NCBI GenBank assembly: GCA_019359175.1
Contig: JAHHHU010000007.1
Span: forward strand, 124,001-188,000
Length of the DNA: 64,000 nucleotides
Source of the DNA: Phormidium tanganyikae FI6-MK23
GTDB taxonomy: Bacteria > Cyanobacteriota > Cyanobacteriia > Leptolyngbyales > Leptolyngbyaceae
Direction of reading: 5' to 3'
Shown piece by piece: positions 47,124 through 52,080 of the stretch. The position numbers and the translations under genes were made by a program. The notes beneath the pieces are model-generated. The model was given only the letters and a program-made list of their open reading frames with translations. It was not told where the DNA came from and made no database searches. Each line of letters starts with the position of its first letter. Positions within the stretch are counted from its first letter, which is position 1.

Positions 47124-50093
47124 ATGGTGAGTCAAGCTTTTAACGATCGTTATGAATCTCAAACGCAAGCGATCGCGCGTCAGTTGCTCAGTGCGACCCG
47201 TGAATCGCGATCGTGGTTTGCTCAAGTGCGCGATCAGATGCAGTGGGATGATAAGTTGCTCGGATGGGCAATGGGAAATCCAGGGTTACGGGTGCAGTTG
47301 TTTCGGTTGATTGATTGTTTGCCATCGCTGCGAAGCAAGCCCGAAATTGCGCGACATTTGCAGGAATATATGAGCGATCGGACGGTCGAACTTCCTGCGG
47401 CGTTGAAGAATTTACTCAACTTCGCCAATGCGGAATCGATGCCGGGACAATTGGCGGCATCGACGCTTTCTACTGCGGTCGAAACATTGGCACATAAGTA
47501 CATTGCGGGTGAAAATCTCAAGCAGGTCTTGAAGACGATCGAGCGCTTGAGAAAAGAGAAAATGATGTTTACGGTGGATTTGCTGGGTGAAGCGGTGATC
47601 ACCGAAACCGAGGCGCAATCTTATCTCGATCGCTATTTAGATCTAATGGCGCAATTGACCGAAGCCTCGAAATCCTGGTCAAAAGTTGAGCAAATCGATT
47701 TCGCTGATGGCAAGCCACTTCCGAAAGTTCAGGTTTCCGTCAAGCTTACAGCGTTCTATTCTCAGTTCGATCCGTTGGATGAGGAAGGCAGCAAGGCGCG
47801 GGTTGCCGATCGTGCTAGAACTTTGCTGCGTCGCGCTCAGGAACTTGGTGCAGCCGTTCACTTTGATATGGAGCAGTATGCTTACAAAGATCTGACGCTG
47901 GCAACTTTGAAAGCATTGTTGCTGGAAGACGAGTTTCGATCGCGTTCTGACATTGGAATGACGATTCAAGGTTATCTACGCGATAGCAAAGATGATTTGC
48001 AAGGCTTGGTTGATTGGGCAACGGAGCGTGGAACTCCGGTGACGGTTCGATTGGTCAAAGGGGCTTATTGGGATCAAGAAACGATCAAAGCGGTTCAGAA
48101 AGATTGGGATCAGCCTGTGTTTAACGACAAGGCTGAAACGGATGCGAACTATGAACAGTTAACGGAACTATTGCTCGAAAATCACGAGGTTTTGAATGCA
48201 GCGCTCGGAAGTCACAATGTTCGATCGCAGGCTCATGCGTTAGCGATCGCGAAATCTCTCAACATTCCCAAACACAGAATCGAGTTTCAAACCCTTTACG
48301 GAATGGGTGATAAGTTAGCGAAAGCGATCGTGGATCAAGGCTATCGCGTTCGGGTGTATTGTCCTTATGGCGAACTGATTCCCGGAATGTCGTATCTGAT
48401 TCGTCGATTGTTAGAGAACACGGCAAATAGTTCATTCTTGCGGCAGAATTTAGAAGAAAGACCGATCGAGGAATTGATTACGGCTCCCAAAGTTAGCGAA
48501 CATTCTGAACTGAAGGCTTTGGATAAATTCGAGAATGCCGCAGACACCGATTACTCGAATGATGCAAAGCGCGATCATATTCAATTGACTCTAAAATCAG
48601 TCCGTCAACTGTTCGGCAAAACTTACTTACCGTTGATCGATGGTGAGTTTGTCGAAACAACTGAGAAGATTAGATCCGAGAATCCATCGCGATTTAGTGA
48701 GACGGTTGGCACGATCGGCATGATTAGCATCGAACAAGCCGATCAAGCGATCGAGGCAGCAAAATCCGCCTTTCCCGCCTGGCGACGCACTCCCGCAAAA
48801 GAACGCGCTCAAATCCTTCGCAAAGCTGCCAATCTATTTGAGCAACGGCGCGAAGAGTTAATCGCTTGGATGACTTACGAAGTAGGTAAGCCTGTCAAAG
48901 AAGGCGATGGAGAAGTTTCCGAAGCGATCGACTTCTGTAACTATTACGCCGATGAAATGGAAAGACTCGATCGAGGAGTTGACTACGATTTTCCCGGTGA
49001 AACGAACCATTATCGCTATCATCCACGAGGCATTGTATTAGTCATTTCTCCTTGGAACTTCCCCTTAGCAATTCCGGTTGGAATGACGGTTGCAGCCTTA
49101 GTAACTGGGAACTGTACCTTATTCAAACCTGCCGAAACTTCCTCAGTGATTGCGGCGAAGATTGCAGAGGTTCTCATCGAAGCAGGAATTCCGCGCGGCG
49201 TGTTTCAATTCATTCCCGGTGAAGGTCATACCGTCGGCGCACACTTGGTTAAACATCGTGATGTACACATGATTGTGTTTACCGGATCGCAAGCTGTAGG
49301 ATGTCAAATCTACAAGGATGCAGCCGTTCTACAACCAGGACAGAAACATCTCAAGCGAGTTGTGGCTGAAATGGGTGGTAAGAATGCGATCGTCATTGAT
49401 GAAAGTGCAGACTTAGATCAAGCCGTTCAAGGAGTTGTGCAATCGGCTTTTGGGTTTAGTGGGCAGAAATGTTCGGCTTGTTCTAAAGCGATCGTACTTG
49501 AACCCGTGTACGAAACCTTCTTATCGCGGTTGGTCGAGGCAACTCGATCGCTCAACATCGGAGAAGCGGAATTACCGAGTACAAAAGTTGGACCTGTAAT
49601 TGATGGTGAAGCTCAACAGCGGATTCAGGACTACATCGAGAAAGGACGAACTGAGGCGGAAGTTGCGATTGAGCTTCCCACTCCTGAAGGTGGTTACTAT
49701 GTCGCTCCAGTGATTTTCACAAATGTTCAAGTCGATGCCAAAATTGCCCAAGAAGAGATTTTTGGGCCAGTTTTAGCAGTGATGCGGGCGACCTCGTTTC
49801 AAGAAGCTTTAGAGTTAGCAAACGGAACGCCTTACGCTTTAACAGGTGGATTGTATTCGCGTACTCCATCACACATTGAGCAAGCACAGGCAGAATTTGA
49901 GGTCGGTAATCTGTACATCAATCGGGGAATTACGGGCGCGATCGTGGCGCGTCAACCGTTCGGAGGCTTTAAGCTTTCGGGGGTGGGTTCTAAGGCGGGT
50001 GGAGTCGATTATCTCCTTCAGTTCCTTGAACCGCGTGTGGTGACGGAGAATGTCCAGCGTCAGGGATTTGCACCGATCGAGGGTGCAGAGTAA
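47124..50093 (+). CDS. putA: Bifunctional proline dehydrogenase / P5C dehydrogenase (PutA)
   Basis: 989 residues converting proline to glutamate in two steps. Residues about 30-440 form the FAD-dependent proline dehydrogenase barrel (VSVKLTAFYSQFDPLDEEG, GMTIQGYLRDS, VTVRLVKGAYWDQE, YRVRVYCPYGELIPGMSYLI, RRLLENTANSSFL). About 490-989 is the aldehyde dehydrogenase: ISPWNFPLAIP, FTGSQAVG, VAEMGGKNAIVIDE (catalytic Glu region), SGQKCSACSK with Cys783, and EEIFGPVLAVM. It lacks the DNA-binding domain of enterobacterial PutA, so it is not its own repressor. A CRP-type site lies upstream. Confidence 0.96.
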   Translation: MVSQAFNDRYESQTQAIARQLLSATRESRSWFAQVRDQMQWDDKLLGWAMGNPGLRVQLFRLIDCLPSLRSKPEIARHLQEYMSDRTVELPAALKNLLNFANAESMPGQLAASTLSTAVETLAHKYIAGENLKQVLKTIERLRKEKMMFTVDLLGEAVITETEAQSYLDRYLDLMAQLTEASKSWSKVEQIDFADGKPLPKVQVSVKLTAFYSQFDPLDEEGSKARVADRARTLLRRAQELGAAVHFDMEQYAYKDLTLATLKALLLEDEFRSRSDIGMTIQGYLRDSKDDLQGLVDWATERGTPVTVRLVKGAYWDQETIKAVQKDWDQPVFNDKAETDANYEQLTELLLENHEVLNAALGSHNVRSQAHALAIAKSLNIPKHRIEFQTLYGMGDKLAKAIVDQGYRVRVYCPYGELIPGMSYLIRRLLENTANSSFLRQNLEERPIEELITAPKVSEHSELKALDKFENAADTDYSNDAKRDHIQLTLKSVRQLFGKTYLPLIDGEFVETTEKIRSENPSRFSETVGTIGMISIEQADQAIEAAKSAFPAWRRTPAKERAQILRKAANLFEQRREELIAWMTYEVGKPVKEGDGEVSEAIDFCNYYADEMERLDRGVDYDFPGETNHYRYHPRGIVLVISPWNFPLAIPVGMTVAALVTGNCTLFKPAETSSVIAAKIAEVLIEAGIPRGVFQFIPGEGHTVGAHLVKHRDVHMIVFTGSQAVGCQIYKDAAVLQPGQKHLKRVVAEMGGKNAIVIDESADLDQAVQGVVQSAFGFSGQKCSACSKAIVLEPVYETFLSRLVEATRSLNIGEAELPSTKVGPVIDGEAQQRIQDYIEKGRTEAEVAIELPTPEGGYYVAPVIFTNVQVDAKIAQEEIFGPVLAVMRATSFQEALELANGTPYALTGGLYSRTPSHIEQAQAEFEVGNLYINRGITGAIVARQPFGGFKLSGVGSKAGGVDYLLQFLEPRVVTENVQRQGFAPIEGAE

Positions 50094-50161
50094 CTTCCTA
50101 AGAGGTGTTTTAAAGGTACGAAAAGATATCCCGCTTACGTTTCAGCCCCGACTTCCAGTCC

Positions 50162-50362
50162 CTACCGTGTACACACAAGTCGATCGTCGCTTCGTTTCAG
50201 TCGGCTTCAACCCCCTAAGTCCCCCAAACTTGGGGGACTTAGAACGATAGAGATTTCTTGAAATTCTGGAACTTTCTTGTCTCAAAGTCCCTCAGAATGG
50301 GGGATTTAGGGGGCGAGAAATCTGGGCAATGACAGATCAAGAGACTGGTGTGTACATGGTAG
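50162..50362. mobile_element. 201-bp MITE with terminal inverted repeats and 11-bp target duplication
   Basis: The ends are CTACCGTGTACACACAAGTC (50162-50181) and, inverted, CTACCATGTACACACCAGTC (50343-50362): 18 of 20 positions match. Perfect direct repeats ACTTCCAGTCC abut both ends (50151-50161 and 50363-50373). Inside lies a long palindromic unit (50211-50314: CCCCCTAAGTCCCCC to GGGGGATTTAGGGGGC) shared with 8023-8102. There is no coding capacity, so it depends on a transposase elsewhere. It sits between the convergent putA and permease genes. Confidence 0.85.
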
Positions 50363-50416
50363 ACTTCCAGTCCGGGGGCGGGTCATGCAGTGAACGACTA
50401 CTTTTTTAAACATTCG

Positions 50417-50443
50417 ATAGGCAGAGCATATTGCCCTGCCTAT
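50417..50443 (-). terminator. Hairpin at the end of the permease gene
   Basis: ATAGGCAG and CTGCCTAT form an 8-bp perfect stem with an 11-nt loop immediately past the stop of the minus-strand permease gene. No U-tract follows. Confidence 0.5.
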
Positions 50444-52080
50444 TATTGTTTCTCCATCTGCCAACTGAGAAGAATCACAGGGATCAACCCCACAAGCACG
50501 ATCGCTAATGCTGATCCAGAAGCTTCTGCCAACCGCTCATCCGATGCAAGATTGTAAACATGAACTGCTAACGTATCAAAGTTAAACGGTCGAATAATCA
50601 AAGTTGCCGATAGCTCTTTCATCACATCGACAAACACTAAAATCGCAGCCGCTAAAACTCCTTTCCACAGCAGCGGAATGTGAATGCGAAACAATGTATT
50701 CGTTGCCCCAAATCCCAAACTCCGAGAAGCATCATCCAAACTCGGTTTAATGTTCATCAAGCTTGCTTCGATGCTATTGAATGACAAAGCTAAGAACCTG
50801 ACCAAATAAGCAAAAATCAGCGCAAAGATTGTTCCACTCAATAGCAATCCTGTTGAGATGTTGAACGTCGATCTCATCCAACTATCGATCGCATTATCAA
50901 ATAATCCAAACGGCACTAAAATCCCAACCGCAATCACCGATCCCGGCACTGCATAACCCATTGAAGCAACGTAAGTCGCGACTCGCATTGTGATCGATCG
51001 ATTCAATCGCAATCCATACGCCAAGATAATCCCAATGACGATCGCCGCCCCCGCCGCCAGCCCCGACACAATCAAGCTATTGCTAGCAAAGTTCCAAAAT
51101 CGTTGATCAAACACTTCATCCCAGTTGTCCAGTGTCATCTTCAACAAGAAACCTCCAGGCAAAAAGAAGCCGAGCAGCAATGGAACAATGCAGAGTAGTA
51201 AAGCCGCGATCGCTCTAATTCCCCGAAGCTGATATTTCTGAAAAGACTGTGAACCGCTCGATTGATAGTACTTCCCTCGTCCGCGCGAAAACTGCTCCAA
51301 CAAAATCAAAGCAAAAATAAATATCAATAAGCATGCAGCTAACTGAGTTGCAGCCAGTCTTTCCCCCATTCCAAACCAAGTGCGATAAATCCCAGTCGTA
51401 AACGTACTCACTTCAAAAAACTGAACCGTTGCATAGTCATTGAGTGTCTCCATCAATGCGAGAGACAATCCCGCCACGATCGCTGGACGCGCCAACGGTA
51501 ACGCGATTTTTCTAAAACTCTGCCAAGGACTACATCCCAAACTCCGACTCGCTTCGAGCGTACAAACCGACTGAGATAAAAACGCCGATCGAGCTAATAA
51601 ATACACATACGGATACAGCACCAACACCAACATTAACGCCGCACCCCAGAGCGATCGTACATTTGGAAACCAATAATCCTGCAATGTTTTCCAACCAAAC
51701 CACGATCGTAAACTCGTCTGCACAATGCCATAAAAATCGAGCAAGTCGGTGTAGGTATACGCCAGGATGTAAGCGGGAGCGGCTAACGGCAACAATAACG
51801 CCCAAGTTAAGATCCGACTTCCCGGAAAACGGCACATTGTCACGAGCCAAGCTGCTCCGGTTCCAATCAGTGTGACTCCAAGCCCAACCCAAAGCATTAA
51901 TAACAGTGAATTAATCACATAAGTTGATAGCACTGTTTCGGCTAAATGCTGCCAGATCGATCGCGCATCTGCAAACAATCCGCTCAACACTACGACGATC
52001 GGTAACGCAATTAATCCAGCGATCGCAATCACTACGATCGTCCAACCACTCAGCGCCGTTTTTTCCCGTGAAATCTGCAT
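50443..52080 (-). CDS. Iron-type ABC transporter permease (FbpB/FutB-like)
   Basis: A 545-residue integral membrane protein with about 12 helices and two tandem permease modules, each with an EAA-type loop: EASRSLGCSPWQSFRKIALP and DASRSLGFGATNTLFRIHIP. This fused two-module form is characteristic of ferric-iron (Fbp/Fut/Sfu) permeases. A ribosome-binding site TAGAGGA precedes the ATG. It is divergent from the ATPase gene across 85 bp. The periplasmic binding protein is not in the window. Specificity for iron is inferred from family. Confidence 0.88.
   Translation of the reverse strand: MQISREKTALSGWTIVVIAIAGLIALPIVVVLSGLFADARSIWQHLAETVLSTYVINSLLLMLWVGLGVTLIGTGAAWLVTMCRFPGSRILTWALLLPLAAPAYILAYTYTDLLDFYGIVQTSLRSWFGWKTLQDYWFPNVRSLWGAALMLVLVLYPYVYLLARSAFLSQSVCTLEASRSLGCSPWQSFRKIALPLARPAIVAGLSLALMETLNDYATVQFFEVSTFTTGIYRTWFGMGERLAATQLAACLLIFIFALILLEQFSRGRGKYYQSSGSQSFQKYQLRGIRAIAALLLCIVPLLLGFFLPGGFLLKMTLDNWDEVFDQRFWNFASNSLIVSGLAAGAAIVIGIILAYGLRLNRSITMRVATYVASMGYAVPGSVIAVGILVPFGLFDNAIDSWMRSTFNISTGLLLSGTIFALIFAYLVRFLALSFNSIEASLMNIKPSLDDASRSLGFGATNTLFRIHIPLLWKGVLAAAILVFVDVMKELSATLIIRPFNFDTLAVHVYNLASDERLAEASGSALAIVLVGLIPVILLSWQMEKQ

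Follow-up and report, generated by a model that had tools for sequence, protein, structure and literature searches.

The window, a stretch of 64,000 nucleotides from Phormidium tanganyikae FI6-MK23, contains a 201-bp transposable element (MITE) in the gap between two convergent open reading frames (ORFs). The ORF to the left (47124-50093, plus strand) encodes a putative PutA-type protein and the ORF to the right (50443-52080, minus strand) a putative transporter permease, both named by inspection. The element is bounded by terminal inverted repeats (TIRs) and, outside these, by a target duplication:

50146-50149, no strand: left C-run (CCCC) of the target palindrome (from the sequence and the folding of the collapsed site)
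50151-50161, no strand: left copy of the 11-bp target duplication ACTTCCAGTCC (from sequence comparison and a flank re-pairing control)
50162-50362, no strand: complete 201-bp MITE (from its TIRs, the family alignment and a profile match)
50162-50181, plus strand: left TIR CTACCGTGTACACACAAGTC (from genome matches; identical to both ends of a complete insertion sequence, L156)
50211-50313, no strand: palindromic interior (a module also found at host places without these TIRs)
50343-50362, minus strand: right TIR, reading CTACCATGTACACACCAGTC on the minus strand (pairs with the left TIR at 18/20)
50363-50373, no strand: right copy of the 11-bp target duplication ACTTCCAGTCC (from sequence comparison)
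50374-50378, no strand: right G-run (GGGGG) of the target palindrome (from the sequence and the folding of the collapsed site)

The two TIRs pair at 18 of 20 positions and ACTTCCAGTCC is a perfect direct repeat that abuts both ends of the element (there is a twelfth matching base, a G, which on the right side is part of the right TIR). An earlier note on this DNA had described a 201-bp MITE with 20-bp ends and a perfect 11-bp duplication, and proved right to the base. The palindromic interior that it reported is also present: arms at 50215-50227 and 50230-50242 are 100% complementary (a nested perfect palindrome, 50215-50242) and arms at 50211-50235 and 50289-50313 are 80% complementary. On both strands the segment 50140-50385 folds far better than shuffled sequences (z -7.7 and -6.0). 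Among ORFs of at least 60 aa only one, of 66 aa, overlaps the element, and there is no transposase gene. The feature is a real MITE, ordinary in kind, and its target duplication is genuine.

Complete insertion sequences with the same ends

The TIR occurs with up to two mismatches in 59 of 144 genomes (host included); with the reversed control, 4 of the 144 had a single match apiece, and single TIR matches may be chance. Pairs of TIRs approximately 1.4-1.5 kb apart were found among these genomes, and complete insertion sequences (ISs) of 1396-1486 bp are present in other cyanobacteria. One of these (L156) is 1479 bp long, carries on both sides the exact 20-base end (20/20), identical to the left end of the window MITE, and has a 464-aa open frame. 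The predicted protein (P0001) scores 369 bits against NCBIfam transpos_IS4_3 (cut-off 160), matches Pfam DDE_Tnp_1 and has as its closest relative of solved structure the Tn5/IS50 transposase (best PDB relative, E 3e-32). Further complete ISs with the same TIR are L131/L155, L157 and copies in Kovacikia minuta and in a same-genus genome (G006), while an IS of Nostoc sp. C057 (1486 bp, ends 20/20) has a 10-bp duplication, GTTTATTAAG, and belongs to the same group as ISSysp3. Exact duplications of 9-12 bp flank 16 of the 22 complete ISs; the six that have no exact duplication are L156, L157, L181, L206 and the K. minuta copies L262 and L263. Among the same-genus copies the duplication is a perfect 12 bp in L179 and a perfect 10 bp in L212, with none in L206. 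A protein search with the transposase (144 genomes, E<=1e-20) gave matches in 29, many of them weaker (approximately 30-36% identity), three being in the same-genus genome. A scan of GTDB genomes for the exact ends returned at least 112 stretches, and the 80 among the matches listed all have cyanobacterial titles; the same scan of viral contigs found none. In one genome (L168, G057:C1:5015500-5017500) four right ends of the element family lie at a 181-bp spacing, one of them with four mismatches, in what resembles a tandem array.

A named member of the group is ISSysp3 (IS4 family, Picosynechococcus sp. PCC 7002 plasmid pAQ7), whose TIRs, CTACTGTGTACACACAAGTA/G, match at 19/20. Its transposase shares 62% identity with P0001, and its duplication of 10 bp (CCCTCTAAAT) is likewise a point of agreement. 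It differs from the window MITE in being a complete 1485-bp IS with its gene (the MITE shares the ends only). Tn5 duplicates 9 bp, whereas duplications in the ISSysp3-like group are mostly 10-11 bp. By eye, the window MITE is homologous to the ISs over approximately the 20-bp TIR only, and is thus not a plain deletion derivative of them.

The window copy has, then, ends that are common to complete IS4-family ISs and a duplication of similar length to theirs. The guess of a link to IS4-group transposases is supported by the IS4-family, Tn5-like proteins that the complete ISs encode; as to a full IS sharing the 20-bp ends, complete elements exist in other cyanobacteria, but the host genome (96.3% complete, 77 contigs) gave no transposase match at E<=1e-20 (three candidates scored). 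Very probably, therefore, the feature is a non-autonomous element of an IS4-family, ISSysp3-like IS, moved in trans most likely by a transposase of this kind.

A second possibility concerns the IS630 family (Tc1/mariner-like): were the target CTAG, with a TA duplication, the terminal CTA...TAG would be target rather than element. On host contig C54 the C-terminus of an IS630-like transposase directly adjoins a perfect TIR, and in two host copies that have no direct duplication (L041 and L016) the flanks are inverted repeats, which would fold into a hairpin whose loop is CTAG. However, all 28 IS630 loci in relatives lack the TIR (up to six mismatches allowed), the eleven IS630 copies of relatives that were read end in GCTATA, and it is an IS4-family protein that ISs with this TIR encode, most with exact duplications longer than TA. 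We consider an IS630 origin very improbable and reject IS630 as parent; C54 is best taken as a nested insertion. At this place (L060 211-428, G000:C54) an IS630-like element would have entered a MITE copy at an internal TA, so that the right end of the MITE remained at the junction.

A further feature of the complete ISs concerns their coding sequence. In all 21 that were scored (of 22; L181 was left out) an N-terminal NP(I/F)xIHA stretch lies in a different frame from the main frame; the difference is -1 in 20 and the other shift in one (L268). These amount to about eight independent sequences, since K. minuta contributes 13 near-identical copies to the 21 and L206 and L212 share ends. Outside the K. 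minuta rows the change lies in the N-terminal part of L156, L157, L131/L155, L177, L179, L206/L212, L293 and L294. The N-terminal part of the scored ISs contains an A(4-6)G5 run, and a -1 difference together with such a run is suggestive of programmed frameshifting or slippage of the transcript. In ISSysp3 the gene as annotated begins inside the main frame; the ISSysp3-like group differs from Tn5 in having its N-terminus in another reading frame. Neither this MITE nor a frame change in ISSysp3-like elements is named in the titles and abstracts found, which came from open-licence papers and left subscription work mostly outside.

Copies in the host genome

A search of the host genome (5.74 Mb) with the 20-bp ends, as the earlier note had proposed, confirmed that there are further copies: the TIR matches at 45 places with up to three mismatches, divided 21 to 24 between the strands, and the reversed control at none, which excludes chance. 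A 266-base query gave 78 match rows; owing to the palindromic nature of the element, many places count twice, once per strand. A profile of 202 positions was built from 15 long copies, one of which is the window copy, which matches it end to end. With this profile 60 distinct host places were recognized (a lower bound, the scan having covered fetched loci): 20 keep both ends, 23 keep one and 17 keep neither, an end being counted where the TIR was found at up to six mismatches within 45 bases. Copies with both ends (n=23) measure 90, 133 or 194-214 bp. One MITE copy (L041/L005, G000:C75:245218-245418) is flanked by a perfect 50-bp inverted repeat and has no direct duplication; the inverted repeat could have arisen by palindrome correction or as an inverted duplication, or could be an artefact of the assembly.

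The same searches bear on the suggestion that scattered palindromic repeats are the interiors of this element. This holds for the 43 of 60 related host places at which CCCCCTAA(A/G)TCCCCC palindromes keep at least one end of the MITE, but not for the 17 that keep neither, some of which are bounded otherwise. Interiors of the CCCCCTAAATCCCCC type have other bounds at several host places; in L052 and in the single region of L027/L063, for example, the ends resemble ...CGTCAGTTCGA, and L046 has the left end of this MITE family and a different sequence on the right. Since interiors are bounded by different ends, the interior is a module common to more than one element. Among the places with a CCCCCTAAATCCCCC interior and other ends near ..CGTCAGTTCGA (L052, L027/L063, L066 and L046) some look like hybrids of two end types.

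The 15 long copies are 70-91% identical (mean 82%), and the closest of the 14 others to the window copy is 84% identical to it. Given these values, and a host without a transposase match, the claim that the intact duplication marks a recent insertion is weak: a perfect duplication says only that the window copy ranks among the better preserved ones. By a simple ORF rule (at least 100 aa), 11 of the 23 copies lie between convergent genes, nine between tandem and three between divergent genes, with none inside an ORF; by the same rule – a rough gene call with a small background – 3 of 27 gaps in the window are convergent.

The divergence of the copies, the three IS matches in the same-genus genome as against none in the host, and the excess of convergent settings are in keeping with the view that the MITE arrived with an ISSysp3-like IS since lost, and that the host copies are fossils, some perhaps kept as terminator- or REP-like palindromes. 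Against this, no terminator-like match lies at the target of the window copy, and the assembly may lack an IS copy. We give this view an even chance; it extends the explanation by an IS4-family transposase acting in trans rather than excluding it.

The relatives examined offer no orthologous locus for an empty-site comparison. The left-hand gene was found in 12 of 12 relatives and the right-hand gene in 8 of 10, and gene order is conserved on neither side: none of the 12 or 8 regions (approximately 420-450 bases downstream read) is syntenic with the window, and blastn of the permease gene gave no match. In a same-genus genome (L295, G002:C623) the orthologous left-hand gene is followed downstream by another MITE copy bounded by these ends; as the sequence further on is different, this copy is taken to have inserted independently.

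Target duplications and target sites

Left and right flanks were scored for duplication, allowing one mismatch and an offset of one base per side, and compared to a null model of 1000 random re-pairings within each set. A score of at least 7 was reached by 7 of 23 two-ended host copies (null maximum 0), by 22 of 42 elements in other genomes (null maximum 3) and by 58 of 59 K. minuta elements (13 on average and 22 at most in the null); the K. minuta null is high because many targets are copies of one repeat. Exact adjacent repeats of at least nine bases were found in 3/23, 17/42 and 57/59, respectively; exact repeats in K. minuta are 11 bp in 28 cases, 10 bp in 25, 12 bp in three and 9 bp in one. 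The set from other genomes consists partly of hand-picked places and is not a random sample. L018 was added by hand, and L020, L053 and L074 came from the profile search; removed were a K. minuta row of 1311 bp (neighboring ends cross-paired), two cross-pairings at L170, duplicates, and flanks shorter than 40 bases. There is no clear duplication in 16 of the 23 host copies or in 20 of the 42 from other genomes; in these 16 host copies it was lost or never present, and the window copy is among the best preserved.

The K. minuta genome (G012), which has undergone a recent burst of insertions, contains IS and MITE side by side. The protein search gave 11 transposase matches (33 first-look candidates, 11 scored). 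An exact duplication of 9-11 bp flanks the complete IS in 11 of 13 rows, and one of 10-12 bp flanks a 188-bp MITE in all 55 rows; of 49 MITE copies scored, 47 are identical to the consensus. The IS and the MITE have their ends, their duplication length and their type of target in common. In most cases the target is a dispersed palindrome, CCCCCCTTTTTAAGGGGGG being an example; 13 of 58 targets lie outside the recognized repeat forms. For one 41-bp target, reduced to a single duplication, nine unoccupied copies were found (one exact, seven with one mismatch and one with two); at the level of the family, this shows that insertion creates the repeat. The likeness of the K. minuta MITE to the window MITE is essentially at the ends (best piece 36 bases, 89%), so different MITEs use the same ends.

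These data bear equally on whether the window feature is a palindromic dispersed repeat of which the flanking direct repeat is simply a part. The collapsed target is itself palindromic, and by eye the flanks of several other host copies are alike, as this would predict. Yet the flanking repeat varies from copy to copy and matches only its own partner, none of the host re-pairings reproduces it, and unoccupied single-copy targets exist in K. minuta: we regard the idea as highly unlikely.

With one duplication removed the window site reads CCCCGACTTCCAGTCCGGGG, and the collapsed 53-base target folds to -16.6 kcal/mol. A similar arrangement is evident in the 29 targets of the 65 host and other elements with a duplication score of at least 7: to the left of the duplication the sequence is pyrimidine-rich (C in 76% at -2, C or T in 96% at -3) and to the right purine-rich (G in 76% at +2, A or G in 96% at +3). 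The flanking arms are complementary at 3.97 of 8 positions compared to 3.06 when re-paired, and 0 of 5000 re-pairings reach the real value. For folding of the same targets the difference looked weak with 60 re-pairings; with 1000, four reached the real mean. Merging look-alike targets (29 to 16) left 3.81 versus 2.94 for the arms (19 of 5000) and 56 of 1000 for folding energy. For the 13 K. minuta targets that belong to none of the recognized repeat forms, folding does not clearly differ (-9.82 vs -9.23 kcal/mol; re-paired minimum -11.28). Palindromy of the target beyond the C/G consensus is likely, but the case for it is not strong. A guessed consensus palindrome had no unoccupied copy in the host genome at up to three mismatches. 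A rho-independent terminator as target, suggested by several flanks, was tried and rejected: the sole terminator-like match in 49900-50700 is inside the neighboring ORF, not at the target.

A preference of this kind in the ISSysp3-like group has precedent within the IS4 family. According to PMC1525189, the nine copies of ISRm22, an IS4-family element of Sinorhizobium meliloti, occupy dispersed palindromes (REPs), where they sit at the axis of palindromy with G+C at the duplication ends; Tn5 target sites are, by the same account, likewise palindromic, with GC pairs where the duplication ends. ISRm22 is not cyanobacterial, the PMC1525189 passages on it make no mention of MITEs, and the trait in common – preference for palindromic sites – is likened by description, not by sequence.

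Proposed movement and its meaning

Taken together these observations suggest how the window copy may have moved. A Tn5-like DDE transposase, encoded by an IS and supplied in trans, would bind the 20-bp ends CTAC(C/T)GTGTACACACAAGTC, bring them together and excise the element, which would then be joined across a staggered cut of approximately 10-11 bp to leave the direct repeat. The preferred target would have a pyrimidine or C run to the left of the duplication and a purine or G run to the right, often forming a palindrome, so that insertions would fall into small GC-rich palindromes in intergenic DNA. For the window copy such action in trans would belong to a period in which the IS was still present in the host or in one of its ancestors. 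That a transposase of this type moved the window copy is most likely, judging from the ends, the duplications and the targets; the cut-and-paste chemistry and the mode of target recognition are inferred.

A more speculative extension, which we think possible but somewhat doubtful, is that this IS4-family lineage, spread through many cyanobacteria, homes to the symmetry axis of GC palindromes, and that its MITEs – some themselves made up of such palindromes – could seed new palindromic targets. Full-length transposase would be made only after the -1 frame change at the conserved A(4-6)G5 run, and the main frame alone would give an N-terminally shortened, possibly inhibitory protein.

Among known systems close in kind is a 187-bp MITE of Microcystis, likewise a cyanobacterial MITE tied to an IS by its ends and duplication length; as described in PMC11448079, it differs in having ISL3 ends starting GGCTCTTCG and an 8-nt duplication, as opposed to the IS4-type ends and 11 bp of the window MITE. 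Nezha (cited in PMC10969869) is likewise a cyanobacterial MITE and is likened by kind only, not by ends or duplication.

The analysis ties an unlabelled dispersed cyanobacterial repeat to its source IS family by ends, duplication and target: such repeats thus become annotatable by ancestry. The dozens of near-identical insertions in K. minuta make target choice measurable, and to ISRm22, as PMC1525189 describes it, is added another IS4-family group that favors palindromic sites.
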